The notes under the pieces: model-generated
The model's database searches: none
What the model saw: only the letters and a program-made list of their open reading frames with translations
Told to the model about the DNA's origin: nothing
DNA from: a virus
Direction: 5' to 3' (one strand)
Virus record (IMG/VR): IMGVR_UViG_3300020450_001517
Span: 1 to 45,561 of that record
DNA length: 45,561 nt
In this document: piece after piece, positions 8,379 through 28,822 of the stretch
How the letters are laid out: every line of letters starts with the position of its first letter
Position numbering within the stretch: the first letter of the stretch is position 1
Made by a program: the position numbers and the translations under genes

Positions 8379-8379
8379 A

Positions 8380-9324
8380 TTAAGTTCCTATTGCATTGCC
8401 AAACAAGTATACGTGTACTCTTGCCGCTACGTTGTAGCCTCTTTGAAATGCTCTAGCCGCCACATCACCAGCAGTTGCTTCCTGCTCCTCACTTCTAGCA
8501 CCAACAGGCATAACCCATACGGGCCATTTTACACCTGCACTACGCATCTTTGCAATTACACCTTCCATCTCTTCCCATTGTTCATCATCGTTACCAACAA
8601 CAAACTTTAGTTGTCCTTTTTGACTGAGATCATAATATTCGCCTACATGTTCTGGCTTTATTGCTCTTTCAGCTTTCTCGCCTGCTACTGTCCATAGTTT
8701 AGGCGATACACTAAAAAACAATTCTGTATCAATACTGTTCGCCCAATCTATAAATTCTGGACGTAATTTTTGTGTACCATTTGTTTCAAATGTCATACTG
8801 CCGGGCAAGTTACCCTGCCTTTGTAATTCTTCATATATTCCTACTGTAGCTTGTTGTCCTGTAGTCATCAACGGTTCGCCACCTGTTATACACAAGTGTT
8901 GTCTAAACTGAGATATAGGATGCAAAAATTGTCCTGTTGGATTGCTATCATTCTTCAATATATCTACAATTTTCTTTGCAATAATTGCAGGAGTTTCATG
9001 TCCCATAAGTCCTTTAAACTTCTTTGCCCAAGTGTAACTGCTATCACATCCTTTATCCCAAACAGGCAAGTCTTCAACTCTGTTAACACTCATTACATCA
9101 AATTCTTCAAACGGCAGTTGATACGTATCTGGATTAGTTGGATCAATTTGCCCAAAGCCGTTGCATTGCAAGTTACATAAAAAGTAACGTATCCAAGCAG
9201 TGGGAACACCTGTGTAATGTCCTTCTCCTTGTATACTGTAAAATATTTCACTGTAATAGTACTTGCGTTCTTTAGCAGTAGCAACTCCACGTTGTCTACC
9301 TCTATTCTCAACCAAGTGCATCAT
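8380..9324 (-). CDS. queE: QueE-like radical SAM 7-carboxy-7-deazaguanine synthase
   Basis: A 314-residue QueE homologue, which rearranges 6-carboxytetrahydropterin to 7-carboxy-7-deazaguanine (CDG), a precursor of preQ0, queuosine and DNA deazaguanines. Visible: SEIFYSIQGEG (25-35), the cluster region RYFLCNLQC (46-54) and TGGEP (SAM binding). Odd: the usual CxxxCxxC has only C50 and C54; position 57 is Phe. An insertion of about 40 residues brings C93 (KGCDSSYTW), which may supply the third Fe-S ligand. It overlaps the flavodoxin gene by 4 bases; flavodoxin is a known QueE electron donor in Bacillus. Acts with FolE and the QueD-like protein encoded at 18-21 kb. Confidence 0.88.
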   Translation of the reverse strand: MMHLVENRGRQRGVATAKERKYYYSEIFYSIQGEGHYTGVPTAWIRYFLCNLQCNGFGQIDPTNPDTYQLPFEEFDVMSVNRVEDLPVWDKGCDSSYTWAKKFKGLMGHETPAIIAKKIVDILKNDSNPTGQFLHPISQFRQHLCITGGEPLMTTGQQATVGIYEELQRQGNLPGSMTFETNGTQKLRPEFIDWANSIDTELFFSVSPKLWTVAGEKAERAIKPEHVGEYYDLSQKGQLKFVVGNDDEQWEEMEGVIAKMRSAGVKWPVWVMPVGARSEEQEATAGDVAARAFQRGYNVAARVHVYLFGNAIGT

Positions 9325-9827
9325 GTTTCACTCCAGCTTGATCGAATTTCTTCTATCCAACTATTTAAACGATTTTCAGTCATATCACGTTGACAGTCTT
9401 CATCTATAGCAAGCCCAATAAATTTATTGTCTATCACTGCTTTACTTTTTTTGTAATTGTGTCCTTGTGTACTAGTAAAGCCAACAAACTTTGCGCCTAG
9501 TGGTTCAAGAACATTATATATTTCTGCTAGTGCGTCTTGATATAATTCTCCATAACCAACTTGATCACCTAATCCAACAAGTGCAACACTTTTATTAGTC
9601 CAATTTACATTTTGCAAATTATCCCAATGTTCTATATAATGCTCTTGCAAAGCACCATAGTCCCATGTAGGAGCAACCAATATAATGTGTTCATATTGTT
9701 CTAAAACTTCAACTCCATCTTGTATATCATGCAGTTCAGTTTCTTGCATTTTGTTCCAGATAAGTTCTGCCACACGTTCACTGTTCATTGTAGTAGAGCC
9801 ATACATAAGACCTATGCGTTGTGTCAT
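9321..9827 (-). CDS. Flavodoxin
   Basis: A 168-residue long-chain flavodoxin. The FMN phosphate loop GSTTMNSE (10-17), the tryptophan-side loop PTWDYGALQEH and the GLGDQVGY loop are all present. It carries one or two electrons to radical-SAM or reductive enzymes. Its stop overlaps the QueE start (ATGA), which argues that it reduces QueE. A matching reductase is encoded at 31577-32275. Confidence 0.9.
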   Translation of the reverse strand: MTQRIGLMYGSTTMNSERVAELIWNKMQETELHDIQDGVEVLEQYEHIILVAPTWDYGALQEHYIEHWDNLQNVNWTNKSVALVGLGDQVGYGELYQDALAEIYNVLEPLGAKFVGFTSTQGHNYKKSKAVIDNKFIGLAIDEDCQRDMTENRLNSWIEEIRSSWSET

Positions 9828-10027: not shown

Positions 10028-10182
10028 AGTTCCTCTAATATTCCTAAAAGCTCTGCACCAATTAAAAGTAATCCTGCTACTAATAAACTGCCTGTACAAA
10101 GTGCAATACCTGCACAAATTCTTACACCACTTTTAACAAGACTAATGTAAAAATGTTTTTTACTTGGATCTACTGGTTCCAT
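10024..10182 (-). CDS. Small membrane protein (52 aa)
   Basis: A 52-residue, Leu/Gly-rich, hydrophobic protein (SGVRICAGIALCTGSLLVAG) with one long or two short membrane helices. It overlaps the sugar dehydrogenase gene by 23 bases and the next gene by 4 bases (ATGA). Function unknown. Confidence 0.65.
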   Translation of the reverse strand: MEPVDPSKKHFYISLVKSGVRICAGIALCTGSLLVAGLLLIGAELLGILEEL

Positions 10183-10915
10183 TTTTCAATCCTTCATTTG
10201 TTTCGATAAGTTGTTTTAATATACTATGATCTGTTAAGTTTGTCAAGGCTTTTACGTCTTTAGGAAAACAATGCCCTCCATATCCAAATGTACCTTCAAA
10301 GTTTGGTGCAATCATATGACTTGGCCCTATGTTTTTCATTTGACCTAATGTACTTGTTAAGTCACTGTAATTCATATCCTTTGGGCCATTTAGAAATATT
10401 TCATGAAAGAATGCAACTTTTGTGGCTAACCATGCGTTATGAACATATTTTATCATACTTGCTGTTGTCCTGTTTGTTTGAACTACATTTGTATTTAGGT
10501 GGTTAAACAAATTTTTCCAAAAAGTTAAGTGTTCTTGATTATCACCACCTAGTATAAAAACTTCTTGGTTTGCAAAATCTTTTTTTGCATGTATTGCTCT
10601 TAAAAATTCAGGATTGTATGTAACATTTGCAGGATATTCTTGCATTAATTCAGCGGTTACTGTACTTTTTAATAATATAGGCTTGTCTGTATCTAATTGT
10701 TCAATAACTTTTCTTACTATGCTATCATCACAATCACCATTTTCATTACTAGGTGTTGGCACACATACTATAAAGGCTTCACATAGATCTCTAACATCAA
10801 ACACAGTAGTAGAATACCATTTAGGATCTATTTTAAAAACATCTACTAAATGATTTTCTAAAAATTCAGCAACTGCACTGCCTACAAATCCTACGCCAAT
10901 GACTGCAACTTTCAT
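10160..10915 (-). CDS. UDP-glucose/GDP-mannose dehydrogenase-like protein
   Basis: A 251-residue NAD-dependent sugar-nucleotide dehydrogenase. N-terminal Rossmann motif GVGFVGSA (7-14), CVPTPSNENG in the middle, dimerisation helix IKYVHNAWLATKVAFFHE, and catalytic-Cys motif GGHCFPKD. The family is normally about 400 aa; here the C-terminal UDP-sugar domain is missing, so the substrate may differ. The reaction would oxidise a nucleotide sugar at C6 to a uronate. It may supply the glycosyltransferase at 18890-19975. It overlaps small membrane genes on both sides. Confidence 0.85.
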   Translation of the reverse strand: MKVAVIGVGFVGSAVAEFLENHLVDVFKIDPKWYSTTVFDVRDLCEAFIVCVPTPSNENGDCDDSIVRKVIEQLDTDKPILLKSTVTAELMQEYPANVTYNPEFLRAIHAKKDFANQEVFILGGDNQEHLTFWKNLFNHLNTNVVQTNRTTASMIKYVHNAWLATKVAFFHEIFLNGPKDMNYSDLTSTLGQMKNIGPSHMIAPNFEGTFGYGGHCFPKDVKALTNLTDHSILKQLIETNEGLKNGTSRSK

Positions 10916-12980: not shown

Positions 12981-12996
12981 ATTATTACCTCCATTA

Positions 12997-13245: not shown

Positions 13246-13254
13246 GTTTCCTCC

Positions 13255-15430: not shown

Positions 15431-16048
15431 TTATACCTTATCTTCAGAAAGTCTACCGTTTAGATAACGCAGTAATACACCATATGCAGGAAGGAATACA
15501 ATTAGTCCTACTGCAATTTTAAGTACAACTTGGCTTCCTGCAATTTCCATCCAGTTTGCCGCCATATACTCATCTGCACTGTTGTTAAATGCAACCCAAA
15601 AGAATGCATATGTGTCAATGATGTTTGCCGCCACTGTTGATACAGCTGGTGCTAACCACCAATGCTTCATAAAGTTTTCACGAAGCCATTGAAACACATA
15701 CACGTCAAGCATTGTGCCAACTGCATATGCTGTTGCACTAGCAAAACCAATTCTTAGTGCTACACTTTGCGGTGCACCTTCTAGCATTACAACTGCAATA
15801 CTGCCAATGATTGCCAACGGATAAGCCGCCGCAATAGTTGAACGTGCAATGTTCTTACCAAGAAGTCTTACTGTCAAGTCAGTTGCCAGTACTACTAATG
15901 GAAAGGTAAATGCCGCCCATGTAAGTTTAATTCCAAAAATTTCTACTGGAATTGCAACTAGTGCATTACTGACTGTGATGACAACCACATGTAGTGCTAC
16001 TAGTTTTAGCAACATGCTTCTGTCGATATCTTTAAAAATTCCTAACAT
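15431..16048 (-). CDS. yhhQ: YhhQ-family queuosine precursor transporter
   Basis: A 205-residue inner-membrane protein of the YhhQ (VUT) family, which imports preQ0/preQ1. Six hydrophobic segments; signature stretches ITVSNALVAIPV, FPLVVLATDLTVRLLG, WWLAPAVSTVAANIIDTYAFF and the end YGVLLRYLNGRL align with E. coli YhhQ. The start at 16048 has a GGGAG ribosome site and avoids overlapping the oxygenase gene. It would let the phage draw deazapurines from outside the cell, complementing FolE/QueD/QueE and feeding DpdA. Confidence 0.9.
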   Translation of the reverse strand: MLGIFKDIDRSMLLKLVALHVVVITVSNALVAIPVEIFGIKLTWAAFTFPLVVLATDLTVRLLGKNIARSTIAAAYPLAIIGSIAVVMLEGAPQSVALRIGFASATAYAVGTMLDVYVFQWLRENFMKHWWLAPAVSTVAANIIDTYAFFWVAFNNSADEYMAANWMEIAGSQVVLKIAVGLIVFLPAYGVLLRYLNGRLSEDKV

Positions 16049-16068
16049 ATTATATTTCTCCCTGTTAG

Positions 16069-16929
16069 TTAATAGCTTTGTGCTAATCGCCATTTCAAGT
16101 ATTCTAAACTTTCAATGGGTTCGTATTTTGCTGTTTGATCTGTTAAATTTTGTACCATAGTACCTGGTGCAGGATCTACAAAATGTGGCATGCTCCAACG
16201 TTCTTTATGTATATGAGAATTAACAACTCTATGTTTAGTTGATTTGAAATAGTCATTTGTCCAACGTTGTAACAAGTCACCAATATTACAAACTACACCG
16301 TTATCTGCATAAGGTACAGGATGCCATTCTCCCTCAAGGTCTTGTACTTGTAGTCCTGGAACGTCATTGATCTGCCAAAGTAGTGTGATAGTGCCGTAGT
16401 CACTGTGTTCTCCTATTCTCATTTGTTTATTCTGAAGAGGTCCATCATATGCTGGATAATGAATTACTCTTGTTGTACTATAGTTTGTTTTGTGTGCATG
16501 TGTTAAAGGCATATCTGGACGTTTGAGTATCCTGTCAAACATTGTCATTAGTTTAAGTGTAAGTCTATCTGCTATTGTTACAGTTTCTCCTGCAAGACTT
16601 TTAAATCCAGTTATGTCGGGCCATAAATGATCGCCCATTCTATCATTGTTATAATTAAAACTTTCTTTTAAATCTTTAGGAGCAGTAGGATCTACATTTT
16701 CTGCACCCATTACACTATAACCTAAATTAGTATCGCCTTCATATGGATACTTCATTTTGGTTTCCAAATCCATTTCAAAAAACTGTTTCATTGTATCAAA
16801 CCATAAGTTGTAAACACTACGTTCTTGTTCATTAAAATGGTTTGTAAAAACTGCAAACCCAATAGTTGTGTATGCATCTTCTATCTGCTTTAGTGCAGTA
16901 TCATCTTTTAAATCTATTACTGGTATCAT
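16069..16929 (-). CDS. 2OG-Fe(II) oxygenase (isopenicillin N synthase-like)
   Basis: A 286-residue 2-oxoglutarate/Fe(II) dioxygenase of the DIOX/IPNS type. Start at 16929 (MIPVIDL) with AAGGAAA upstream. Iron ligands HxD in GEHSDYGT and the distal His in STKHRVV; the 2OG-binding Arg lies in RWSMPHF. It probably hydroxylates or oxidises a small molecule; substrate unknown. Being first in the unit with yhhQ, purA and queE, it could tailor a purine or deazapurine. A hairpin terminator (16948-16972) separates it from the upstream gene. Confidence 0.88.
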   Translation of the reverse strand: MIPVIDLKDDTALKQIEDAYTTIGFAVFTNHFNEQERSVYNLWFDTMKQFFEMDLETKMKYPYEGDTNLGYSVMGAENVDPTAPKDLKESFNYNNDRMGDHLWPDITGFKSLAGETVTIADRLTLKLMTMFDRILKRPDMPLTHAHKTNYSTTRVIHYPAYDGPLQNKQMRIGEHSDYGTITLLWQINDVPGLQVQDLEGEWHPVPYADNGVVCNIGDLLQRWTNDYFKSTKHRVVNSHIHKERWSMPHFVDPAPGTMVQNLTDQTAKYEPIESLEYLKWRLAQSY

Positions 16930-16947
16930 TTTTATTTCCTTAGATAA

Positions 16948-16972
16948 AAAGTGGCCCAAGAAGGGCCACTTT
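16948..16972 (-). terminator. Rho-independent terminator
   Basis: A perfect 10-bp stem (AAAGTGGCCC / GGGCCACTTT) with a 5-base loop, followed on the minus strand by more T residues. It follows the BMP gene stop by 14 bases and isolates it from the oxygenase unit. Confidence 0.85.
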
Positions 16973-16986
16973 GTTATGAGGTGGTC

Positions 16987-18084
16987 TTAGTTAGGCACAC
17001 TTAAATCAATGCCTTCAACATAGTACATCATACTATCTAGGTGAGCTCTATCTGCAATTTCGCCTGCAGGTATTTGTAACTTGCCTGTGTTGTCGTAAAT
17101 AGGTCCTGTGAAAGCAAAGTATTCGCCGTCTCGGATTGCATCTTTGACTTCTTGTGCTTTTGCTCTTACATCATCTGGCATATTTGTAAATGGAGCCATC
17201 TCAACTGATCCATCATTCATATGTCCAAAGTAACAACCGTCTGGTCCATCACAACCTGGTGTCCATGTACCGTCAAGTACTTGACCAACTTTTGCAATAT
17301 AGTAAGGTCCCCAATTATCAATAGTGGCTGTTAATTGTGCCTTAGGTGCAAATGCATATTGATCACTTGCCTGACCAAAACCATGTAGTCCTTGTTGTTC
17401 TGCAACCTGCATAGGTGCAGGTGAGTCTGTGTGTTGTGCAATTATATCACAACCTTGACTAAACAATGCTTTTGATGCATCTGCTTCTTTACCCGGATCA
17501 TACCAAGTCATTACCCAAACGATGTCAATATCAATATCTGGATTAACACTCTTAGCACCTAAGAAAAAAGTGTTGATCTCTCTGATAACTTCTGGAATTG
17601 GATAAGCGGCAACATAACAAATTTTATTTGTCTTTGTCATCATGCCAGCTATGACACCCTGAACGTGTCTAGCTTGGTATAACCTTAGTCCGTAGTTTGC
17701 AAAGTTTGTGTCATTGCTTTTATAACCAGTAGCATGTTCAAATTTCACATCTGGAAATTCTTCTGCTACTTCTCGCATTGAATCCATGTATCCAAAGCTG
17801 GTTCCAAAAACAATGTCTACACCTTGCAATGCCATTTGGCGGAATACACGAGTAGCATCTGGACCATATTGGACACTTTCTACAAACATTGTTTCGACTT
17901 TATCGCCGTATGCTTCTTCTACTTGTTGACGACCAATATCATGTCTATAAGTCCAACCATGGTCACCTGTTGGTCCAACATATACAAAGCCTACTTTAAC
18001 TTTATCTTTTGGTTCATCTGCATATGCAGAGAAAGCCATTGTAACTGCAAGCATTGTTGCAGTCAGTAATTTAATTAGTTTCAT
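16987..18084 (-). CDS. BMP-family ABC substrate-binding protein
   Basis: A 365-residue periplasmic binding protein of the basic membrane protein family (PnrA/TmpC, Med), whose characterised members bind purine nucleosides. Start at 18084 with AGGAGA upstream. It opens a clear signal peptide (MKLIKLLTATMLAVTMAFSAYA, cleaved after about 22) with no lipobox. VGFVYVGPTGDHGWTYRHD and IVFGTSFGYMDSM are family-typical. No permease or ATPase is visible, so it would work with the host transporter, much as cyanophage PstS does for phosphate. It stands alone between two strong terminators, looking like an inserted host-derived cassette. Ligand is inferred. Confidence 0.9.
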   Translation of the reverse strand: MKLIKLLTATMLAVTMAFSAYADEPKDKVKVGFVYVGPTGDHGWTYRHDIGRQQVEEAYGDKVETMFVESVQYGPDATRVFRQMALQGVDIVFGTSFGYMDSMREVAEEFPDVKFEHATGYKSNDTNFANYGLRLYQARHVQGVIAGMMTKTNKICYVAAYPIPEVIREINTFFLGAKSVNPDIDIDIVWVMTWYDPGKEADASKALFSQGCDIIAQHTDSPAPMQVAEQQGLHGFGQASDQYAFAPKAQLTATIDNWGPYYIAKVGQVLDGTWTPGCDGPDGCYFGHMNDGSVEMAPFTNMPDDVRAKAQEVKDAIRDGEYFAFTGPIYDNTGKLQIPAGEIADRAHLDSMMYYVEGIDLSVPN

Positions 18085-18144
18085 GTTTTTTATCTCCTCT
18101 TGGGTTTTTAGGTGTTCTTTAACTAAAAAATGTTTCACCCTAGT

Positions 18145-18179: not shown

Positions 18180-18863
18180 CTATTTGGCATATTCTTGTTG
18201 TAATTTTACATTATCAATAAATTCTTTCCTTACGTCTGGCTCATCTTTAAAAGCACCTCTAAGCACTGTGGTTTGTGTTAAACTACTGTGTGCTTTGATG
18301 CCTCTGTTCTCACAACAACCATGTGTTGCTTGAATATAAACACCTACATGTTCACTGCCTGTAATTTCTTGTATTTTATTTGCAATCATTACATTCAAGT
18401 CTTCTTGTAGTGTGCCTCTTTTTGCTACCCATTGTGCAATTCTTGAGTACTTGCTTAGACCTAATAGTTTTGGACCTGCAATTATACCAATGTATGCTAC
18501 ACCTTTTACTGTTTGGTGATGATGCGAACACAAACTAGTTAGTTCACTACGCACAACCAACATGCCTTCATAACCACCTTCAATGTAGTTGGGAAATGCA
18601 CTAGGGTTGGGCATTGCATCATAACGACCAGACATAATCTCATTGATGTACATCTTTGCCATACGTCTTGCAGTATCCATACTGTTAGGATCAGTCTCAG
18701 TATCAATCACTAGACTTTGTAATACATTTTCAAAAGCTGGCATCGCCTCTTCGATGAGTTGTTGCTTTTCGCCTTCTTCCATGTAATCACTGATGTTGTC
18801 GTTTGCCCATGCTCTCGCACCAGCGGCGTCGACACGCTCTTTAATTTTTTGGGAAATTTTCAT
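18180..18863 (-). CDS. folE: GTP cyclohydrolase I
   Basis: A 227-residue FolE making 7,8-dihydroneopterin triphosphate from GTP, the first step to deazaguanines and folate. Zinc and active-site motifs: SLCSHHHQTVKG (Cys, His), LLGLSKYSRIAQWVAKR, and THGCCENRGIKAHSS (Cys). Last gene of the DpdA/QueD-like/glycosyltransferase block, right before a terminator. The QueE step is supplied by the separate unit at 8380-9324. Confidence 0.94.
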   Translation of the reverse strand: MKISQKIKERVDAAGARAWANDNISDYMEEGEKQQLIEEAMPAFENVLQSLVIDTETDPNSMDTARRMAKMYINEIMSGRYDAMPNPSAFPNYIEGGYEGMLVVRSELTSLCSHHHQTVKGVAYIGIIAGPKLLGLSKYSRIAQWVAKRGTLQEDLNVMIANKIQEITGSEHVGVYIQATHGCCENRGIKAHSSLTQTTVLRGAFKDEPDVRKEFIDNVKLQQEYAK

Positions 18864-18889
18864 TTATTGCTCCGAGTTATAGTGGTGTG

Positions 18890-19975
18890 TCACTTTATAG
18901 TCTTATACATTTCTGCTCCACTAAAAAAATTAGCGGTAAGTTTTGCTGACTCTGTATTTAACTGATTATGATAGTTCTTATGATAAACAACGTAGTTTTT
19001 TAACTTTTCTATTAGCTTACCTTTGTGACGTTTATAGCTATCAAAATCTTCAGTCCATTCACTTGGATACTTGAAGTCGTCATCATACATCTCTGTATAA
19101 CTCAATCTGTCAGGTACCATTGGAATGGCATTTACCAATGCACCTTCGTATGCACTGATGCCTAGTGTCTCTTGCAAGTTTGCACTAAACACTACTTTAG
19201 CTTCCCCAAGTATATTATGATATTCATCTTTTGTCAATTCTTGTTCTTGACAAACTATAAATTCATACTCGGGTAATTCTTTTTGTAAGTCTTTAAATAT
19301 GTCCAACTGTTTTTCAGGTGCTAGCCTGTGTGGGAAAATAATGGTATCCTTTTTCTCCATGTTCTTAAATGGAGTAAGTATATCTTGCATATACTCCATG
19401 GGCCAACCTGTAATAACAATATTGTCGTTTGCATCTTTTAATGTTTCAGCAGGAGTCATACCAAACATGCCTTTGTACTTTAGCAACTCTGTAGCAAACA
19501 AGTTTAGATGAAATTCTGTTGCAAAGTAGTTGTGGTCATAACACCAAAACATACTTTTTTCTGCATTGCGTACCCATGCTTTCTCTCCTATTATTCGTCC
19601 AAGGAAGTCATGCGGATCATAACTACCAGCATGCCACATACCACCAATGCGAATGTCAACACCCAATAGCTCTGCCATATACCGTAGTTGAATAACTGTA
19701 GGATTCCAAGCATCAGTATACAGAAAATAATCTCCGTTTCGTACTTCACCATTACAAAACATCTCTCCAATCTGTTCTAACTGTTTGCTTTTATAAACAT
19801 TTGTACCACCAAAGTTGAGAAAAGCCCCAGGTGTTGTAGCCTGAGGAGTCTCTCCACCACTGATTACTACTACTTCTTGGTCAGTGTTTTTACGCAATTG
19901 CACTGGTAAATGTTTTTTCCATTGTGCGGTATAACGTGTATCAACTGCTTCTAAGTCAATTAGATATACAGTCAT
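18890..19975 (-). CDS. GT-B glycosyltransferase
   Basis: A 361-residue GT-B fold glycosyltransferase, GT4-like. The C-terminal nucleotide-sugar half is clear: FPHRLAPEKQLDIF (about 218-231) and the EX7E motif in NLQETLGISAYEGALVNAIP. The N-terminal acceptor half is not of a known type. It overlaps a 102-aa gene by 4 bases and precedes folE. Because it lies inside the DpdA-FolE operon, its acceptor may be modified DNA rather than cell-surface glycan. Alternatively it modifies a virion protein. Confidence 0.82.
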   Translation of the reverse strand: MTVYLIDLEAVDTRYTAQWKKHLPVQLRKNTDQEVVVISGGETPQATTPGAFLNFGGTNVYKSKQLEQIGEMFCNGEVRNGDYFLYTDAWNPTVIQLRYMAELLGVDIRIGGMWHAGSYDPHDFLGRIIGEKAWVRNAEKSMFWCYDHNYFATEFHLNLFATELLKYKGMFGMTPAETLKDANDNIVITGWPMEYMQDILTPFKNMEKKDTIIFPHRLAPEKQLDIFKDLQKELPEYEFIVCQEQELTKDEYHNILGEAKVVFSANLQETLGISAYEGALVNAIPMVPDRLSYTEMYDDDFKYPSEWTEDFDSYKRHKGKLIEKLKNYVVYHKNYHNQLNTESAKLTANFFSGAEMYKTIK

Positions 19976-20280
19976 GCCGCCTCCTTAGGCTGTACCCAAG
20001 GATGTTGAAATATTCCAACATGGATTTTTAGTTTCTTAGGACTACGATCTGCTGATATTTTCACAGCCACATCATAGGTTATAGCAGTATCACGAATTAT
20101 ACTTGTGATAGTATAATCTTGAATCATACGTGCTTTTATTAAATCTTCAAGATAGCTTTGAAACAAATGTTTCATTGTATCTTCACTTTGTTTATTATTC
20201 TCAAGGATCCCATCATATGGTTCAATTATACGAATAAGGTCCCACTTGATATCATTAATACTGATGCGATTTTGTCGCAT
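19972..20280 (-). CDS. Hypothetical protein (102 aa)
   Basis: A 102-residue basic soluble protein; the start at 20280 was chosen because GAGG precedes it and it begins one base after the QueD-like stop. Helical N-terminus and beta-like C-terminus (IRDTAITYDVAVKISAD). No family recognised. Its position between the T-fold protein and the glycosyltransferase makes a role in base modification possible. Confidence 0.65.
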   Translation of the reverse strand: MRQNRISINDIKWDLIRIIEPYDGILENNKQSEDTMKHLFQSYLEDLIKARMIQDYTITSIIRDTAITYDVAVKISADRSPKKLKIHVGIFQHPWVQPKEAA

Positions 20281-20281
20281 T

Positions 20282-20737
20282 TTATACCTCGTATTCAATT
20301 GTTGCTCCATTTTCACCATCTTCACTGACAGTAAGTTTTATATTACGTGCAGGGTATTTGTTATTGATAGTGCTTGCAAGATCATCACAGATCATCTCAC
20401 AAGATTTGTAATCAAGTTGCAGAGTTCCGTCTGCATAGAGGCTTTCCAACCATCTTTTGAATTGGATAAATTCAATATCTCGATCATCGTGATATACTTC
20501 AATAGCTACTTTGAAGTGGAAAATGTGTCGATGTATGTATCCTAAGAAACTTACATCATCTGCACCACCTGTTGCCAATTTAGGATCTTCAAGTGCCGCT
20601 GGATATTTGTGCAATCCTTCTTTTCGAAAGGTTACCCATATCATAGCTTTTTTGTTTTTTATTTTTCCAGCCATATTTTCTTCCTTAGTACGTCTAAGCA
20701 TGTATTCGTAGTAACGCTCGTCTCGCATGCCGTCCAT
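20282..20737 (-). CDS. QueD/6-pyruvoyltetrahydropterin synthase-like T-fold protein
   Basis: A 151-residue protein with a layout like QueD/PTPS: GLHKYP near residue 42, FLGYIHRHIFHFKVAIEVYHDDRDIEF (HxH zinc-like pair then a strand and acid), a mid-helix with DYKSCEMICDDLA, and SEDGENGATIEYE at the end in the place of the family's pterin-binding Glu. Classical QueD has three His ligands and a catalytic Cys before them; these are not all evident. It would act between FolE and QueE to make 6-carboxytetrahydropterin. Assignment rests on partial motifs and context. Start is TAATG-coupled to the gene upstream. Confidence 0.6.
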   Translation of the reverse strand: MDGMRDERYYEYMLRRTKEENMAGKIKNKKAMIWVTFRKEGLHKYPAALEDPKLATGGADDVSFLGYIHRHIFHFKVAIEVYHDDRDIEFIQFKRWLESLYADGTLQLDYKSCEMICDDLASTINNKYPARNIKLTVSEDGENGATIEYEV

Positions 20738-20919
20738 TACTTTTTCTTTACTGTTATCGATTCTTCAGATTCATCAAATTTCTTTTCAAATCTTTGTAGT
20801 ATCTGTAGCATTTCCCACAGTTTCCAATCCATGGACTTTGCAAGTTCCATTAAATCGTTGTCAGTAGGTTTTTCATCTGCAGATGGAGCTTCATCAATAA
20901 CTCTAATTTTCTTTACCAT
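20737..20919 (-). CDS. Small acidic protein (60 aa)
   Basis: A 60-residue helical protein; the start at 20919 has an AGGAG site and avoids a long overlap with the DUF465-like gene. Acidic middle and Lys-rich end (SITVKKK). It shares TAATG with the QueD-like start. No function recognised. Confidence 0.65.
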   Translation of the reverse strand: MVKKIRVIDEAPSADEKPTDNDLMELAKSMDWKLWEMLQILQRFEKKFDESEESITVKKK

Positions 20920-21088
20920 TATTTTCTCCTGTAAGACGTGTAATCTCATCTTTAAGTTGCAATTTACGTTGTTTTAAATTTTTAAGTGTTTTTTCACTAT
21001 AAGTTGTATTGTATAACCGTTTTATTTCAGTGTCAAGTGTTCTATGCTCACGTTGTAACTTTTTTAATCGGTTTTGTACAGACTTCAT
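20903..21088 (-). CDS. DUF465/YdcH-like coiled-coil protein (61 aa)
   Basis: A 61-residue, nearly all-helical charged protein (LQREHRTLDTEIKRLYN, LKNLKQRKLQLKDEITRL) matching the layout of the DUF465/YdcH family, small helical-hairpin proteins of unknown role. It overlaps the cytidylyltransferase gene by 41 bases and the 60-aa gene by 17 bases. Confidence 0.7.
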   Translation of the reverse strand: MKSVQNRLKKLQREHRTLDTEIKRLYNTTYSEKTLKNLKQRKLQLKDEITRLTGENNGKEN

Positions 21089-21503
21089 TGTTAACTCTTT
21101 CCCTTAGGTCTGTGGTACTAAATCTATGCTCTCTTGTATTAAAGTATAAATCAATACCTCTCTTACGACAAATGTCCTTGCCAGTAAAATCTTTTTCTCT
21201 ATATTCCTCACCAAGAACTCTTACATTTATATGATACATGCTTAGTATATCACATAAGTCTTGTTCAGTTTGGTAAGGGACAATTTCATCTACATACTTT
21301 ACACTTGTAAGTTGACTATATCTTTCAACTAGTGTTTGTACAGGTTTATTTTTGGTATCTGGTCTATCGATTGTTGGATCAGTTTGTAATCCGCACAACA
21401 AGTAATCACAATGTTCTTTTGCTTCTCTGAGCATAGCAATATGTCCTGCATGTAGCAAATCAAAAGTACTACAGGTAAATCCAACTATTTTTTGTCCATT
21501 CAT
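21048..21503 (-). CDS. TagD-like glycerol-3-phosphate cytidylyltransferase
   Basis: A 151-residue HxGH nucleotidyltransferase. CSTFDLLHAGHIAML (about 11-25) holds the signature, VRVLGEEY is the second loop, and RFSTTDLRERV is the ISTTxxR-like nucleotide motif, all as in TagD/GCT. It would make a CDP-alcohol (CDP-glycerol or similar) from CTP and a polyol phosphate. The start at 21503 overlaps the upstream stop (ATGA). It lies among dehydrogenase, glycosyltransferase and DpdA genes, suggesting synthesis of an activated group for attachment to DNA or virion; the product is unknown. Confidence 0.85.
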   Translation of the reverse strand: MNGQKIVGFTCSTFDLLHAGHIAMLREAKEHCDYLLCGLQTDPTIDRPDTKNKPVQTLVERYSQLTSVKYVDEIVPYQTEQDLCDILSMYHINVRVLGEEYREKDFTGKDICRKRGIDLYFNTREHRFSTTDLRERVNNEVCTKPIKKVTT

Positions 21504-21709
21504 TTCAATGCCAATACAAATAAAATTGCTATTAATAATACATTGGTTAAAATCATTTGAATACAAAGTATTAGATGATACCAAACCCATCTATGTTTGT
21601 ATAACGTATGAATATTTACCTTTGGGTCAACCACACTGTCATCTTCTTGTTTTACTTTTTCAACTTGATGTCTCTTTAATCCAAATACTATAGGCCACGG
21701 TAAATGCAT
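21500..21709 (-). CDS. Small membrane protein (69 aa)
   Basis: A 69-residue protein: soluble basic N-terminus, then a C-terminal membrane helix (about 45-68, LILCIQMILTNVLLIAILFVL). It overlaps the cytidylyltransferase start by 4 bases. Function unknown. Confidence 0.65.
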   Translation of the reverse strand: MHLPWPIVFGLKRHQVEKVKQEDDSVVDPKVNIHTLYKHRWVWYHLILCIQMILTNVLLIAILFVLALK

Positions 21710-21718
21710 AGTTCTCCT

Positions 21719-22231
21719 TTATTCAATATTTTCATCACCCTTATAATCTTTCCAGTCTGTGTATACATCACGGCTTTGAAGATCATGTAATGAATGACAC
21801 CATACACCCGAGTTACTGTGTCCCCATGTTGTGTCATCTAGTTTGATTGTTGCATTATAATTAAATTGTTTTATATATGGAAGTTTTACACTTATCATAC
21901 TTATGTAATTATCATATTCATCAAATCCACATTGTAATACTTGTTCTGTGTATTTGACATCAAAGTCTAGTGTACACCAAAACTTTTTATCAAGTAATTC
22001 TTTAATCATCTTTGTCCAAGCACTCCATGCTTGAGGAGTTTTTGGCGTAAAACTTTGACTTGTACCAAAGTACAAATGTCTAATACCGTGTGCCAAACCA
22101 TGTTTTATTATTTCGTGTGTGTCTTTTACTCCTACTATAAAAAGTGTTTTCTCTCCTTTCATAGCAGTGTTTTCAACTTCTTCACCAATAAAGTAATCAG
22201 TTTTTTGACGTTCGTGTGTATCTAGTCCCAT
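21719..22231 (-). CDS. Conserved hypothetical protein in modification cluster (170 aa)
   Basis: A 170-residue soluble protein. Visible stretches are LFIVGVKDTHEIIKHGLAHGI, HLYFGTSQSF, WCTLDFDVKY, and a C-terminal SVKLPYIKQFNYNATIKLDD followed by GVWCHSLHDL. The alternation suggests a small alpha/beta (flavodoxin- or TIM-like) fold, but no family is recognised. It overlaps the dehydrogenase gene by 10 bases. A partner role in the DpdA cluster is inferred from position only. Confidence 0.7.
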   Translation of the reverse strand: MGLDTHERQKTDYFIGEEVENTAMKGEKTLFIVGVKDTHEIIKHGLAHGIRHLYFGTSQSFTPKTPQAWSAWTKMIKELLDKKFWCTLDFDVKYTEQVLQCGFDEYDNYISMISVKLPYIKQFNYNATIKLDDTTWGHSNSGVWCHSLHDLQSRDVYTDWKDYKGDENIE

Positions 22232-23136
22232 TTGATATATCCTCTTTGATAACCTTCAGGTCTGTTATTAGAATCAGCAAAAGCCTGTTGCCATTGATTG
22301 TTTCTATTATAACCTTTTGTCCACACATTGTCAAGCTCTATCTTGCCTTGTGCTACTAATGTTGTTGCAAGTTTCATAGCATCATGAAATGTTTCTGCCC
22401 TCGGACTTGGCATTTTCATTGTAATATTATTCCACAACCAATCAGACTTCAATTGTCCATGTGGTACTGTGCCCATTATAATCAATGCATTTGGATGAGT
22501 CTCAGCTTTCAATACTTGGTCAGTATCTTTTAAGTTTACAACAACATTATATTTTTGACTTGGTTTATGAACTACATCTACAGCCACTTCGTTCCAATAT
22601 TCCAAGTTACTTCTTGTGCATACATCTACACCAAAATTATAGTTCATATGTTCTATGGTTTGATAAAATACTTGTGCTAAAAATCCACCACCAATAATCA
22701 ACATGGTTCCACCATCATGTTGTTGTAATTCTTCGCGACACACTAATGCCATATTCACTGCACAAGCTACAGGTTCAATAATGTAATCTGGATGTGCTTC
22801 TGGTACTACACAGTAGGTACCTTTTTTACAGTTATATACGTCAGCATAACCAGGTTCACCTCTAGTTGCAACATAGTCATTAATTTTACAATCATCTATT
22901 TTGTTGCCTACTGCAATTACTCGACCTAGTCCTTCATGTCCATGCATTTCAGCTGGCAGTAAAGGAAACTTACCATTCATCATATCAATGTCACTACGAC
23001 ATACACCAGTCATTATTGCTTGTACACGTATTTCATCTGATAATAACATGGGTACCAAGTAATCCTTTTCAAAGAACTTACCTTCTCCGTCAGTCACAAG
23101 TTGTCTTACAGGTTGCTCAAGATTTGGTGTATCCAT
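22222..23136 (-). CDS. Zinc-type MDR alcohol/polyol dehydrogenase
   Basis: A 304-residue medium-chain dehydrogenase/reductase. The start at 23136 was chosen because AGGAGA precedes it and it shortens the overlap with the upstream gene to 31 bases. Catalytic-zinc residues are in GVCRSD (Cys), MHGHEGLG (His-Glu) and IIEPVAC (Glu); the Rossmann loop is LIIGGGFLAQVFY. The structural-zinc Cys lobe is absent. Relatives include sorbitol dehydrogenase and the ribulose-5-phosphate reductase TarJ. Beside a TagD-like enzyme, reduction of a ketose phosphate to a polyol phosphate is attractive but unproven. Confidence 0.85.
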   Translation of the reverse strand: MDTPNLEQPVRQLVTDGEGKFFEKDYLVPMLLSDEIRVQAIMTGVCRSDIDMMNGKFPLLPAEMHGHEGLGRVIAVGNKIDDCKINDYVATRGEPGYADVYNCKKGTYCVVPEAHPDYIIEPVACAVNMALVCREELQQHDGGTMLIIGGGFLAQVFYQTIEHMNYNFGVDVCTRSNLEYWNEVAVDVVHKPSQKYNVVVNLKDTDQVLKAETHPNALIIMGTVPHGQLKSDWLWNNITMKMPSPRAETFHDAMKLATTLVAQGKIELDNVWTKGYNRNNQWQQAFADSNNRPEGYQRGYIKWD

Positions 23137-23984
23137 ATATCCATCTCCTGTTGTAATTTCCAATAGTCATCATTTTTATGTTCAAACAATGCAGTCTTTA
23201 TCATTTCTTTGTATGCACTTTCTGGACATAAACCCAGTTCAAAACTTTTTGTTTTTGTATGAACTGCAATATCATCGCCATCTCTACTTGCCCAATCAGC
23301 ACGTAATTCAAAATCTCCAAATTCAATGTAACAAAAATCATCTACATCATATACGCCATCAGGATCAACTTCTCCATAATCACTGTCCGTTAAATCTTCT
23401 AAGTTCCATGATTGTGTTGTGATAATATTTTTAGGTTGTATTTTTCTCCAATTAGGCTCAAACATTTGATATAAACTTAACAAGTGTGGCATCAAATCTC
23501 TGCTCACTCCACCATATGCTAATTGTTTATTTGTAAACCAACTACCTGGTTTAGGAACTCTATTATCATTGATCCAATTAATTTTTGCATATCCTTTTGC
23601 ACAGTTTGCCATTTCAATAATGTTATCTCTGTATTGATTGTTTTTGGTCATCATAATCCTTGTATCATTATGATCTCCAAGTAATTTTACCCATTGTTGT
23701 TGATTGAATACGCCTGGCTTTTCTACGAACATAATATCACAGTGACCTGCATAAAGATATGCAAGTTCTAAATGTGTCCAGTTTGGAGTAGTAATGTGAC
23801 AAGTGTTAAAATAGTGACCACCATGTCCGGTGCCACCTCCAGTTACATGTTCTGGCTTGTTGAAGTCTGCATTAGGATCTGCAATGTCTACTGTTGTAAC
23901 TTGCCAGCCCATACTTTCGTATATACTTTTGTATAGGCTACCAAATCCTGTACCAACTATTAGTGCTTTATTCGAAGAGTGCAT
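23106..23984 (-). CDS. Gfo/Idh/MocA-like oxidoreductase
   Basis: A 292-residue NAD(P)-dependent oxidoreductase of the Gfo/Idh/MocA type. N-terminal Rossmann GTGFGSLY (11-18), FVEKPG with the family's conserved Lys-Pro of the active site, NQYRDN, and a C-terminal substrate domain beginning GGVSRDLMPHLL, where a catalytic His-type residue sits. It would oxidise or reduce a sugar. It overlaps DpdA by 17 bases and the MDR gene by 31 bases, so all three are one translational group. Confidence 0.83.
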   Translation of the reverse strand: MHSSNKALIVGTGFGSLYKSIYESMGWQVTTVDIADPNADFNKPEHVTGGGTGHGGHYFNTCHITTPNWTHLELAYLYAGHCDIMFVEKPGVFNQQQWVKLLGDHNDTRIMMTKNNQYRDNIIEMANCAKGYAKINWINDNRVPKPGSWFTNKQLAYGGVSRDLMPHLLSLYQMFEPNWRKIQPKNIITTQSWNLEDLTDSDYGEVDPDGVYDVDDFCYIEFGDFELRADWASRDGDDIAVHTKTKSFELGLCPESAYKEMIKTALFEHKNDDYWKLQQEMDIWIHQILSNL

Positions 23985-25473
23985 TAAACTGTGCTGAACT
24001 GTTAATTGTTTTCTTTCCTACGGCACCACGTGTGCCAATTACTTTCATCCATAGTTTACGATGATTTTCGATAATAGTCAAGCTCTTTCCTTTATCGCTT
24101 TCAGCAAATACTTCCATAATAACATCTTTAACTTCAGTCTTATCAAAGTTATCATCTACCATCATACTAGGATATGCACCTTTGTCAAAGGATTTGTTTG
24201 CTTCTTGTACACTCATAATATGTTGCCATACATTGTGATTCATTAACAAGCAATAAGCAAAACTATCCCAACTTGTTTTAGTTTCGGTGCCCATTCTACT
24301 TACATCACCAGGAGCATAGTAACAAATATCATCAATGGCTAAACCTTTGCTCATAGGTGAACTTATATAATCTGGATACATCTGTTTTACAACATCATCA
24401 AATGGAACATTACTACCTTTGTATGCTTTATCATCTGGACCTACATTCATCAAGTAACTCCATTTACCACCTTGATCCAATCTCCAGTTTGTGTAAAACT
24501 GTCCATTGGCTGTACACAAGAAAGGACTTGCACAATCATATGTAATGTTGAAACTAGGGTTATGATACTTGCGAACTGCTCTTTGCATTGCAGTTAGCAC
24601 CACTGCCCATTCTAATTTACTTGTACCAAGAAAGTGCATAACATCATGCTTGCCTTCTTCAAGTAGTCCGTCATGTCTAAGTTCAACTAGTCTTTTAAGT
24701 GCTAGTTCAATATCACACATATTTTGACCACCCATAGCCCAACCATTGAAGTGTGCATCTGGATACTGTTTTGGATCACAAAACTTTTTCATTTGTGAAT
24801 ACCAATCATCTGCTTGTGCAAAGTTTTCACCTTGTAGCACATTTAAGAACTTGCAATCGCCACTACGGTTCTTAATAAAGTATTCGTTATTAAAAGCAGT
24901 ACCGTCTACTGCTTCTTGATAACTTCCGATGTTACTAGCTTTTGCACCTTCAGGACTTCTGCTTACCCATGCTGGAATATCCAATATCATTCCATAGTCC
25001 ATAAATGCGTCCATCCATTTGAGAACGCCATCACGTTTTTTCTGTGCTAGACTACAACCACTTCCTGCTCTCCAGTCACCTTCCCATTTGCCTTTACCAA
25101 TCTGAAAGCCTCCGCTATCACCTAATAGCCAACTGTATTGTCTATCACGTTCTCTGTATTGACTTTCTCTGTACATGTCTTTTTGTAAATCAAGACTGGC
25201 ATGACCTGCACTGTGTAAACTCCACTTGTAACGCCACATACCTTCTTTAGCAAGCCAGTTTATACTTTCAACTCCATTTGTGAGGTGCGAGGGAATTCGA
25301 TTGAGTGGGATATAAGGTTCCCCACTACCTTTCTTATTTTCGTCTAATGGTTCTAAGCCTCGTCTTTGCCTACCTACAAACAGAGCATAGAAAGTACTAA
25401 GTGCTGGCAAGAATGTTGCATAGTCACTTTGTCTTGCAGTTAAGTCTGTTTCAGTTGTATAATCTGTTGTCAT
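23968..25473 (-). CDS. dpdA: DpdA-like DNA deazaguanine transglycosylase
   Basis: A 501-residue TGT-superfamily protein best read as DpdA, which swaps guanine in DNA for a 7-deazaguanine. LLGDSGGFQ (117-124) carries the general-base Asp of TGT, NVLQGEN and NGWAMGG match the substrate loops, and ITYDCASP (D313) matches the nucleophile Asp. The zinc site is not obvious. Tail differs from tRNA-guanine transglycosylases, and length (501 versus about 380) favours DpdA. It overlaps the oxidoreductase gene and a 52-aa gene, and shares an operon with folE and the QueD-like gene. Likely effect: protection of phage DNA from host nucleases. Confidence 0.85.
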   Translation of the reverse strand: MTTDYTTETDLTARQSDYATFLPALSTFYALFVGRQRRGLEPLDENKKGSGEPYIPLNRIPSHLTNGVESINWLAKEGMWRYKWSLHSAGHASLDLQKDMYRESQYRERDRQYSWLLGDSGGFQIGKGKWEGDWRAGSGCSLAQKKRDGVLKWMDAFMDYGMILDIPAWVSRSPEGAKASNIGSYQEAVDGTAFNNEYFIKNRSGDCKFLNVLQGENFAQADDWYSQMKKFCDPKQYPDAHFNGWAMGGQNMCDIELALKRLVELRHDGLLEEGKHDVMHFLGTSKLEWAVVLTAMQRAVRKYHNPSFNITYDCASPFLCTANGQFYTNWRLDQGGKWSYLMNVGPDDKAYKGSNVPFDDVVKQMYPDYISSPMSKGLAIDDICYYAPGDVSRMGTETKTSWDSFAYCLLMNHNVWQHIMSVQEANKSFDKGAYPSMMVDDNFDKTEVKDVIMEVFAESDKGKSLTIIENHRKLWMKVIGTRGAVGKKTINSSAQFNALFE

Positions 25474-25628: not shown

Positions 25629-26360
25629 TTACTTGCTTTGTGCTGGAAGGATATAGTCATAAGTTGCCATACCACTATCTACTGTTATCATTGCCGCACC
25701 TGCATCACTAAACTTCATAGTAATATCCCCAGGCAAGTTTAAAATACTTTGCACTTGTGCTACGGGCCAACTCCAACCTGTGTTTAATGCACCTTGTACA
25801 TTTGCTTGGAATACAAAGTTACCAGCATGTGTAGTTGAATCACCAAAGAAAAACTTTAAATCATTACCTTCAGTCTTTGCAACAAACACAGTTTCTTCTC
25901 CGTTAGCTTGACTTTGCATTTTAAATCTTGCAATGCTTGCACTATTGGGTTCCATTTCAATATCCCAACTAACACCTTTAAACTTGACGCTTTTTAGTTT
26001 TTCCTCAACTACTTCTTTACTCATAAATCTGTAGTCATTTTTAAAGTCGCCACTTGCATTTTCAAAATGCAAACCAAACGGAACAGTTTCTCCATTACGT
26101 TCTTGTTCATTAACAGTGATGTTTGCATTTTCTTTGTATTCATCAATGTTAAGTAAAATGTTTAGTTTGCTAAGATTAGGCAAACCAAAAGTACCACTTA
26201 GTCCTGGTACTTGCTCTTTAAATGTTGCTTGTACAATAACTGTACGATCATCATCCATAGCTTCTAGTTGTGTTCCGCCATCTTCATTGACGATTTTTGC
26301 TGACTCGATAAATCCAAGTCCATGTGTATGTTGCACAATATCTTTTAAATAATCTCTCAT
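25629..26360 (-). CDS. 45: Sliding clamp (T4 gp45-like)
   Basis: A 243-residue protein comparable in length to the T4 clamp gp45 (228 aa). The start at 26360 has AGGAT upstream. Two similar halves of mixed strand/helix, with NLSKLNILLNIDEY in the first and GWSWPVAQVQSILNLPGDITMKF in the second, as in phage clamps. It tethers the polymerase and, in T4, activates late transcription with gp33/gp55. It lies in the replication operon after gp43 and the DnaE-like gene. Confidence 0.8.
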   Translation of the reverse strand: MRDYLKDIVQHTHGLGFIESAKIVNEDGGTQLEAMDDDRTVIVQATFKEQVPGLSGTFGLPNLSKLNILLNIDEYKENANITVNEQERNGETVPFGLHFENASGDFKNDYRFMSKEVVEEKLKSVKFKGVSWDIEMEPNSASIARFKMQSQANGEETVFVAKTEGNDLKFFFGDSTTHAGNFVFQANVQGALNTGWSWPVAQVQSILNLPGDITMKFSDAGAAMITVDSGMATYDYILPAQSK

Positions 26361-26596
26361 TTTCGATCCTTTTTCAGTAGTATTATGTTGTAACTGCCTT
26401 GTGTGCGGGTGTTTAATTTGTACTCCCTCACATATGTATTTAGGTGGAGCCAAGTTTCAATCTCTTGTTTAATTAAACCTTGCCCGCAAATAATTTCGCA
26501 CCGTTTATTGTTGTTATAATAGCATTGTTCTACAAACTTGTCAACTGCTTTCCATGCTTCATGTACATGCATTCTATGCAAATCTAAACAAGGCAT
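26357..26596 (-). CDS. Smr-domain protein
   Basis: A 79-residue Smr (small MutS-related) domain with its hallmark LDLHRM (4-9), a helix HEAWKAVDKFVEQC, and ICGQGLIKQEIETWL in the place of the HGKG loop. Smr domains nick or bind branched DNA or RNA. The gene overlaps the clamp start by 4 bases, fitting a replication/recombination role. Confidence 0.78.
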   Translation of the reverse strand: MPCLDLHRMHVHEAWKAVDKFVEQCYYNNNKRCEIICGQGLIKQEIETWLHLNTYVREYKLNTRTQGSYNIILLKKDRK

Positions 26597-27145: not shown

Positions 27146-28822
27146 TTAACTTAGTTTTTCTAGTTTGTCAACAGTTAATCCTCTGCATTGTTTAGCATCA
27201 ATATACTGTGTTCTGTTGTTCATTTTTAAAAATCCGTGCCCATAAAGTATTGGATATTTTCTTGTGCTGATTGGATCATGCAGTGTTACATCTATGTATT
27301 CACCATTTCCAATACCAAGTGTTACAAATGTTACATACTTGCCACGTTCACTTTTGAATACCCTACTGTTGGCTACTATACCACAAAAAGCGGCTTTACC
27401 ACCTCTGCGTTTTAAAAATGTATTGGGCAAGAACTGACTGCTGGTCCAATAGCCTTTGCGTTTGTATTCGTCTACAGGATCATACAAATCACACACATTG
27501 CCCAATGCATTGTTTAATAGTGCTTCTCTTTTGTATACCCAACGTCTATACGAACCTTGACAGTGTTTGAGTGCCGCCTCCCAAAACTTTTGTGGATTGT
27601 GGGCTTTCTCATATGCTAGACTCCATATAAGCCTACCCAAGTTTATAGCATGAGCTCTACATATACCAAACCCACTTAGTTGTCTTAGATCTTCCATAAT
27701 CTCATCACGTTTGACATGGCTACCAATTAGTTCATAAAACTGCATAACTTTTTCTTCGTTGCGTTTGGCAAATGCTCTACGCCACATATCAGCTTCATAG
27801 TAATTGCAACCTAGTATTTTACTGATGCGTTTGATAGCATCATCTTCGTATACAGTTGTTTCGTTAAATTTGTCTTTGCTCCAATCATTGAAGAAACTGG
27901 CTTTGCGTCTGCCTTGCATTGCTACAGGACGTACCAGTGCAGTTGCAAATGTGCAGTCATCTCTGTTGGTTACGTGCAATGCTCTAAACAGTCTACGCAT
28001 TGCTGGCGACTCCGCTTGTGTAACACCCAATACATCACCACGCTGTAACAGTTGTGCAGTCTTTTCATCATACTGCGGATATTCCATTGGTTGCTTGCCA
28101 TTTATCTCCCATAGTTGACTAAGTCCTCTGTTTGCAAGTATATCAATTTTAAAGTGTTCAAGGTCTTCTATCTCATACTTGTCTAATAGTATTTGATTCT
28201 CACCATTGATAAGACTTTTGGGTACCTTTCTATCAAATATAAGTACACCACCACAGTGTTTGCTGATATAGTTTTTCTTGCCTTCCAGCTTTCTTGCTAT
28301 GCGTTCTGCTTCGCCTTCTTGTCCTGGAATAACTTCTGTAAGTCGAAAGTTTCTGCCCAACTTGTTGTGTGGTACTCCAAGTCGTTTACATGCTTCACGC
28401 AATGCACTTTTGGGTTTGTAAGTTACAAAGTTTGATACTCTTGCACTTTGTCTGGGCCAGTTGTCGTATACACGTTGCATTACTATTGCTTGAGCCCAAT
28501 GTGGAAAGTCCAAGTCAATGTCTGGTAAGTCGTCACGTTTTGGATTAATAAAACGTGCTAGTGGTATTTGTTGTTCAATTGGATCTACATCACTTATGCC
28601 CATAAGGAAACACACAAGACTGCATCCTGCTGATCCTCTAGTTATGTGTGGAAAGTCTTTTGCTAGTTCTAATATCTCATGTACTCTTACAAAATGTTTG
28701 ACGAATCTATGCTTGAGTATTAGTTCTACTTCTTCGGCTAGCCTATCTGTGTATTCTTTTGTTGTTGGTATTTTTCTACAAAAACGTGATGTGAGTTGTT
28801 CTATCTGTTCTAGTTCTGTCAT
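27146..28822 (-). CDS. Truncated family C DNA polymerase (DnaE/ImuC-like)
   Basis: A 558-residue family C polymerase that lacks the PHP domain (DnaE is about 1160 aa). Palm: TRGSAGCSLVCFLMGISDVDP (61-81), LPDIDLDF (D101, D103) and HFKIDILA (D227) keep all three catalytic Asp. Fingers and later conserved blocks are present (KHCGGVLIF, VTQAESPAMRRLF, SGFGICRAHA), followed by an OB-like end (FCGIVANSRVF). It should be active and may be error-prone or a repair polymerase like ImuC. A second polymerase family beside gp43 is unusual in T4-like phages. It lies between gp43 and the clamp. Confidence 0.85.
   Translation of the reverse strand: MTELEQIEQLTSRFCRKIPTTKEYTDRLAEEVELILKHRFVKHFVRVHEILELAKDFPHITRGSAGCSLVCFLMGISDVDPIEQQIPLARFINPKRDDLPDIDLDFPHWAQAIVMQRVYDNWPRQSARVSNFVTYKPKSALREACKRLGVPHNKLGRNFRLTEVIPGQEGEAERIARKLEGKKNYISKHCGGVLIFDRKVPKSLINGENQILLDKYEIEDLEHFKIDILANRGLSQLWEINGKQPMEYPQYDEKTAQLLQRGDVLGVTQAESPAMRRLFRALHVTNRDDCTFATALVRPVAMQGRRKASFFNDWSKDKFNETTVYEDDAIKRISKILGCNYYEADMWRRAFAKRNEEKVMQFYELIGSHVKRDEIMEDLRQLSGFGICRAHAINLGRLIWSLAYEKAHNPQKFWEAALKHCQGSYRRWVYKREALLNNALGNVCDLYDPVDEYKRKGYWTSSQFLPNTFLKRRGGKAAFCGIVANSRVFKSERGKYVTFVTLGIGNGEYIDVTLHDPISTRKYPILYGHGFLKMNNRTQYIDAKQCRGLTVDKLEKLS

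Follow-up and report, generated by a model that had tools for sequence, protein, structure and literature searches.

Linkage of a glycosyltransferase to DpdA in phages points to a probable sugared deazaguanine in viral DNA

Why would a virus encode, within one run of overlapping genes, both a transglycosylase predicted to exchange guanine in DNA and a glycosyltransferase (GT) with its own set of sugar-metabolism enzymes? The question is raised by the IMG/VR record IMGVR_UViG_3300020450_001517, a 45.6-kb fragment analysed here over its whole length (the window). Between positions 18180 and 25473, its minus strand carries dpdA, a Gfo/Idh dehydrogenase gene, an MDR dehydrogenase gene, a conserved gene termed g21719, a nucleotidyltransferase gene, small open reading frames (ORFs), a QueD-like gene, another small ORF, the GT gene and folE, and many neighbouring members of this cluster overlap briefly. 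The cluster lies downstream of a B-family polymerase read from the sequence (28878-31577) and of a candidate sliding clamp (25629-26453) recognised by eye alone, Pfam giving no match for it. The original prediction grouped most of these genes into a single overlapping operon and proposed that the deazaguanine put into DNA, or another target, is further decorated with a sugar or a polyol phosphate. All of the genes it named are present, as judged from family, residue and fold evidence. Building on established family-level gene identities, conserved catalytic residues and linkage, we consider it likely that the cluster specifies a phage DNA hypermodification, in which DpdA would insert a deazaguanine and a dedicated GT would sugar that base using a donor whose genes are exchangeable.

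The linkage of these genes was examined across related viral loci. In 26 loci found with DpdA the order is mostly polymerase, clamp, dpdA, (Gfo/Idh, MDR), g21719, (nucleotidyltransferase), QueD-like gene and GT, with folE usually next after the GT where the loci extend far enough. To avoid the circularity of loci found through DpdA, we then anchored the search on the GT. A first scan gave at least 561 relatives, of which the best 80 were surveyed; 59 of those loci extend 4 kb or more upstream, and every one of them carries dpdA, g21719 and the QueD-like gene. When distant GTs served as seeds, a second scan found dpdA in 57 of 59 loci and the QueD-like gene in all 59. Taken together, these scans place dpdA beside the GT in 116 of the 118 viral loci that could be tested, an association far beyond chance; as to the exceptions, one 462-kb virus has dpdA elsewhere in its genome and the other gave no dpdA match with the query used. 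A third scan, anchored on Gfo/Idh, identified dpdA in 71 of 71 loci. The alignments used for the first GT scan and for the Gfo/Idh scan were drawn from dpdA loci, and a scan seeded with a single sequence, the GT of Acidovorax phage ACP17, returned ACP17 itself as its sole match. The original prediction had proposed such a neighbourhood survey, and sugar genes that are common without DpdA were not seen for the GT or for Gfo/Idh among the best 80 matches to each. With GT relatives on more than 560 viral contigs in each of two scans, the system is common, and the viruses that possess it form a large, mostly marine group infecting bacteria.

The GT-DpdA pair recurs in unrelated phages, in some of them with DpdA proteins of other subfamilies. 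In Pseudomonas phage PA5oct, dpdA, the GT and the QueD-like gene are contiguous, and Gfo/Idh, MDR and g21719 lie together about 25 kb away. Phage ACP17 encodes, close together and in this order, QueD, FolE, a g21719-like protein, a TGT-like (tRNA-guanine transglycosylase-like) protein of another subfamily, the GT, the QueD-like protein and QueE. In Synechococcus phage BUCT-ZZ01 the genes for a TGT-like protein, the QueD-like protein and the GT are consecutive, and the GT of Xanthomonas phage X1 directly adjoins a protein annotated by its authors as a queuine tRNA-ribosyltransferase. In Sinorhizobium phage Phosso, the GT adjoins the QueD-like gene and dpdA is about 170 kb away. We note separately that X1 carries, between folE and the GT (locus L209, 4091-5703), a PAPS-reductase-family protein (SGGKDS) and a 144-amino-acid ORF that resembles g21719 by eye.

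Bacterial occurrences are few: in the family of Shimia, 2 of 393 genomes have the genes. Records from Rhizobiales, Azospirillum, Sulfitobacter (two loci) and Shimia, together with one more genome of the Shimia family, place the GT next to dpdA and a small transporter of the VUT type. A conserved protein of 585 to 592 amino acids, which has no Pfam or NCBIfam match, comes next in four of these six loci (L200 at 7492-14104, L199, L201 and L295, each with the transporter, GT, dpdA and this protein). A related small tyrosine recombinase is encoded near five of the six, including L200, L201 and L295, and the cassettes are possibly a mobile DNA-modification element. Since the bacterial set is reduced to transporter, GT and transglycosylase, it suggests that the GT acts on what DpdA inserts. 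Further decoration of the inserted deazaguanine, as proposed, is thus well supported by genomics, through the viral linkage, the unrelated phages and the bacterial cassettes.

The window's DpdA has no credible match in Pfam, PHROGs, NCBIfam or PADLOC, and sequence searches against solved structures returned nothing for it or for the GT. Its AlphaFold model, computed from an alignment of 14 relatives, has a mean pLDDT (predicted local distance difference test) of 73, and all 50 VIA rows listed for it are tRNA-guanine transglycosylases (Z 16.9-17.6), to which Foldseek also matched it at 3e-6. In line with this fold, D119, S120, G121, G122 and Q124 (DSGGFQ-type) are kept in 176 of 177 sequences, Q214-G215 in 176-177, and D313, at the position of the nucleophile Asp, in all 177, with residues mapped onto the TGT motifs by eye. 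The CxCxxC zinc motif that marks tRNA TGTs is present in none of the 177. An hhalign comparison with the single DpdA of phage 9g was without power to decide. From the predicted fold and these residues we take the window protein as a divergent DpdA, which would exchange guanine in DNA.

The GT appears to be a GT-B/GT4-like enzyme. Alone, the window protein matches Glycos_transf_1 at E 0.078, under the cut-off; the same family is matched by 12 of 17 GT family members at E up to 1, the best at 1.8e-4. Furthermore, none of 197 sequences departs from E269 and E277 (the EX7E motif) or from the donor-site lysine K222. For a GT4-like transferase with these fixed residues, a nucleotide sugar is better supported as the donor than a CDP-polyol (CDP, cytidine diphosphate).

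What base would be sugared? Beyond folE, the window encodes a BMP-type binding protein, a 2-oxoglutarate (2OG) oxygenase and a YhhQ transporter, then QueE and a flavodoxin; QueE, flavodoxin and YhhQ are pathway genes beyond those originally listed. QueC was not found in the window record or in the genomes of ACP17, PA5oct and Phosso, and four of 23 related records have weak QueC matches spanning only part of the profile. With FolE and QueE present and QueC not found, 7-carboxy-7-deazaguanine (CDG) is the likely product. Nor was canonical QueD found in the window record, which for both searches offered a 45.6-kb fragment. Of 23 related records, 15 (among them ACP17, PA5oct and Phosso) do encode canonical QueD, as a gene distinct from the QueD-like one. 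The QueD-like protein of the window has no PF01242 (QueD) match and shows a weak collinear profile match to QueD, and an hhalign comparison with the single CAjan QueD was without power to decide. Its predicted zinc ligands are conserved (H43 in 183 of 184 sequences, H69 and H71 in all 184), and a leucine, L65, occupies the position of the QueD catalytic Cys in all 184. The QueD-like gene that had been predicted exists; it is probably not QueD, and we reject it as the QueD of the pathway, given the absent cysteine and the canonical QueD elsewhere in related records. The gene is also found in phages without a detected GT (Rhizobium phage RHph_I1_18 and Cellulophaga phages), which makes the base pathway a likelier home for it than the GT. 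The protein probably processes CDG, perhaps by decarboxylation. A CDG decarboxylase, DpdL, was reportedly described by Cui et al. 2023, and such an activity would fit the QueD-like protein as one more reaction downstream of QueE where phages have no QueC.

The remaining core protein, g21719, was not recognised by the family libraries, nor were most of the small ORFs, and sequence searches against solved structures gave weak, non-credible matches for it and for the QueD-like protein. Its model (pLDDT 86) has a TIM-like alpha/beta fold, and VIA lists QueE for it with a Z of about 6 across 130 residues. Foldseek gave nothing better than E 0.03, with QueE absent among the rows listed; the radical SAM motif CxxxCxxC is absent from the alignment, and profiles did not support kinship with QueE. 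The modelled resemblance of g21719 to QueE is a weak lead.

As for the donor, Gfo/Idh alone scores 16.9 bits in Pfam, but a profile of its family finds solved Gfo/Idh enzymes, with DgpA the top match at 9e-12; E88, K89 and P90 are kept in 87 of 88 sequences, and D163 and H167 in all 88. The MDR protein matches PF08240 (E 2.4e-8) and keeps C55 and H76 in 86 of 87 sequences and E77 in all 87. The nucleotidyltransferase matches PF01467 (E 5e-14), with HxGH invariant in 46 of 46 sequences. It had been called TagD-like: the superfamily holds, but it is closer to HldE domain II (79.6 bits, cut-off 181.5) than to TagD (TIGR01518, 62.6 bits, cut-off 165.4), and an identity as the TagD glycerol-3-phosphate cytidylyltransferase was rejected on this equivalog score, far under its cut-off. 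The UDP-glucose-dehydrogenase-like protein is 31% identical to a protein at another locus (L017) that itself matches nucleotide sugar dehydrogenases. Among relatives the cassettes differ: some have Gfo/Idh and MDR, frequently without the nucleotidyltransferase, others combine the nucleotidyltransferase with a phosphomannomutase (PF03332, 2e-25) and an NAD epimerase, with or without the UDP-glucose-dehydrogenase-like protein, and a few have none of these genes. The donor-sugar genes are swapped among viruses around a constant core. In PA5oct (L108, 35870-37638), Gfo/Idh and MDR retain a fold-level match and have lost their catalytic residues, as if another role had been retained.

Based on this work, the pathway would probably proceed as follows. 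FolE and QueE would make CDG with the help of flavodoxin and of QueD, for which most of the larger related records have a gene elsewhere; this product is CDG, which the QueD-like protein may process, perhaps decarboxylating it. DpdA, encoded beside polymerase and clamp, would swap guanine in replicated DNA for this base, onto which the GT4-like enzyme would move a sugar from a nucleotide-sugar donor. In the window phage Gfo/Idh, MDR and the nucleotidyltransferase would tailor this donor, perhaps helped by the UDP-glucose-dehydrogenase-like protein, and relatives would draw on other cassettes or on host sugars. The resulting bulky base would block restriction and other DNA-targeting defences. 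If the base is decarboxylated, the question of the GT acceptor moves to the centre, and a C-glycoside is conceivable. In that specific form, the QueD-like protein would convert CDG to 7-deazaguanine, DpdA would insert it and the GT would form a C-C bond between C7 and a sugar tailored by the phage, yielding in genomic DNA a C-glycosylated guanine analogue whose sugar varies between viruses by cassette exchange; we regard this version as unlikely.

Several points weigh against DNA hypermodification by a GT. Plain 7-deazaguanine would offer the enzyme no obvious hydroxyl acceptor, and the core protein g21719 has no role assigned to it. PA5oct has DIN for EKP in Gfo/Idh, and S for C55 and C for H76 in MDR. 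Each anchored scan covered only the best 80 matches, and some loci come from near-identical viruses. Finally, all reactions, the acceptor atom, the sugar and the DNA target are deduced from sequence, structure prediction and neighbourhood. The decoration could instead be a polyol phosphate of CDP-glycerol or CDP-ribitol type, made by MDR with a TagD-like cytidylyltransferase, since a TagD-superfamily nucleotidyltransferase and MDR do occur together in the window and its close relatives. However, that enzyme scores nearer to HldE-II than to TagD and under both cut-offs, no CDP-glycerol or polyol phosphotransferase family was matched among the proteins scanned, other members of the group pair it with sugar-nucleotide genes (phosphomannomutase and NAD epimerase), and Gfo/Idh and MDR often do without it. 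This branch of the original prediction is consequently the weaker one and appears improbable, and the gene content supports a sugar better than a polyol phosphate.

It is about equally improbable that the GT and sugar genes serve a virion protein or a host surface glycan and only travel with dpdA. Surface-modifying glycosyltransferases are common in phages, and the function of this GT is a prediction; yet the association with dpdA in 116 of 118 loci spans diverse viruses, sits in the replication module, and recurs with different TGT-like subfamilies and in bacterial cassettes. The TGT fold of DpdA, and the fact that known sugared deazaguanines occur in tRNA (PMC12518689), could mean that RNA is the substrate of the transglycosylase and that the deazaguanine glycosylated by the GT is carried by tRNA or phage RNA, in the manner of mannosyl- and galactosyl-queuosine. 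We find this very improbable, given that CxCxxC is missing from every DpdA sequence and that dpdA lies between clamp and polymerase-associated genes as in 9g and CAjan, phages with a class of modification demonstrated in DNA (PMC6884629). We attach least weight to a scheme in which the GT sugars the free base or nucleotide and DpdA inserts it ready-sugared: all the enzymes are encoded together and the findings are compatible with a small-molecule acceptor, but the DpdA pocket would then need to accommodate a bulky group at C7, and the precedents glycosylate the polymer (T4 glucosyl-hydroxymethylcytosine, PMC13216743; sugared queuosine, PMC12518689).

Sugaring of a DpdA-inserted base would extend known systems. 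Phages 9g and CAjan represent the DpdA-dependent class of deazaguanine modification, which was shown in DNA (Hutinet et al. 2019, PMC6884629). As in the window phage, their dpdA adjoins polymerase and clamp, and folE and genes of the preQ0 pathway accompany it; CAjan has a preQ0 transporter as well. Unlike it, their pathways include QueC or Gat-QueC, and tblastn with the GT gave no match in either. The window-type system adds the GT, exchangeable sugar genes, the QueD-like paralogue and g21719, with QueC not found in the isolates searched. The alpha- and beta-glucosyltransferases of T4, which act on hydroxymethylcytosine, likewise sugar a modified base after replication (PMC13216743). In T4, however, the base, the handle and the route to the base all differ. 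T4 takes host UDP-glucose and, to our knowledge, encodes no donor-sugar pathway. A precedent for sugaring a deazaguanine that a transglycosylase placed in nucleic acid is provided by QTMAN and QTGAL (PMC12518689), although these act on animal tRNA, at a cyclopentene hydroxyl that is not expected here. The bacterial dpd genomic islands also combine chromosomal dpdA with deazaguanine modification of the host (Thiaville et al. 2016, cited in PMC12707154). The alphaproteobacterial cassettes differ from these islands in being transporter-GT-dpdA sets, four with the 585- to 592-amino-acid protein and most with the small tyrosine recombinase nearby.

No pairing of DpdA with such a GT was found in the accessible parts of the literature searched, which did not include Cui et al. 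2023 or the 2024 MMBR review, and the novelty of the pairing is provisional; likewise, the passages retrieved from papers on PA5oct, Paride and jumbo phages contain nothing on such a modification, and a search for papers on DpdL gave unrelated work. If the reading of a sugared deazaguanine is correct, DpdA chemistry would join hydroxymethyl-cytosine and hydroxymethyl-uracil as a handle for larger phage DNA decorations, and the swapping of donor genes about a constant core hints at an arms race in which the sugar displayed on DNA is contested. The core is carried by sequenced isolates, namely PA5oct and its Pseudomonas aeruginosa relatives, ACP17, X1 and BUCT-ZZ01; one relative of PA5oct, Paride, kills dormant cells (PMC10761892). 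The occurrence of the same GT-dpdA pair in alphaproteobacterial cassettes suggests its use by bacteria or their mobile elements as well.

Table 1. Features of the window assigned to the proposed modification pathway.
Feature	Position	Strand	Basis
DpdA, divergent DNA-guanine transglycosylase (putative), 501 amino acids	23968..25473	-	TGT fold Z 17.6, conserved active site
Gfo/Idh/MocA dehydrogenase, probable donor-sugar tailoring	23106..23984	-	Family profile, conserved residues
MDR zinc dehydrogenase, probable donor-sugar tailoring	22222..23163, likely start ATG 23136	-	PF08240
g21719, conserved 170-amino-acid core protein	21719..22231	-	Alignment; predicted TIM-like alpha/beta fold
TagD/HldE-superfamily nucleotidyltransferase	21048..21590, likely start ATG 21503	-	PF01467, HxGH
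T-fold-type QueD-like protein lacking the QueD cysteine; may process deazaguanine	20282..20737	-	Conserved histidines
Small conserved ORF	19972..20325	-	Seen only in the window's closer relatives
GT-B/GT4-like glycosyltransferase; putative role, sugaring of the base that DpdA inserts	18890..19975	-	Glycos_transf_1, EX7E, dpdA linkage
FolE, GTP cyclohydrolase I	18180..18863	-	PF01227 E 1e-37
YhhQ-type preQ0/preQ1 (queuosine precursor) transporter	15431..16093	-	TIGR00697 119 bits, above cut-off
QueE-like radical SAM 7-carboxy-7-deazaguanine synthase	8380..9324	-	NCBIfam QueE models: partial N-terminal, E 1e-9, under cut-off
Flavodoxin, possible QueE electron donor	9321..9827	-	TIGR01752 176 bits, above cut-off
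UDP-glucose-dehydrogenase-like protein, possible donor-pathway part	10160..10915	-	By eye; similarity to locus L017 protein

The slot after folE varies among related phages and holds different uptake systems. In the window (15431-18138) it contains the BMP-type binding protein, 2OG oxygenase and YhhQ, at locus L001 (17249-20559) an ABC importer set with a 2OG oxygenase, and at locus L004 (13584-14876) a purine-permease-like protein of 430 amino acids, the last two identified by eye. A purine and nucleoside salvage set also adjoins the modification genes (7735-8166, 11018-12523 and 13418-15371), comprising an adenylosuccinate synthetase matched by Pfam and, by eye, phosphoribosyltransferases and a thymidine-kinase-like protein. 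Finally, a 558-amino-acid DNA polymerase III alpha fragment with NTPase and finger domains (27146-28822) adjoins the complete B-family polymerase.

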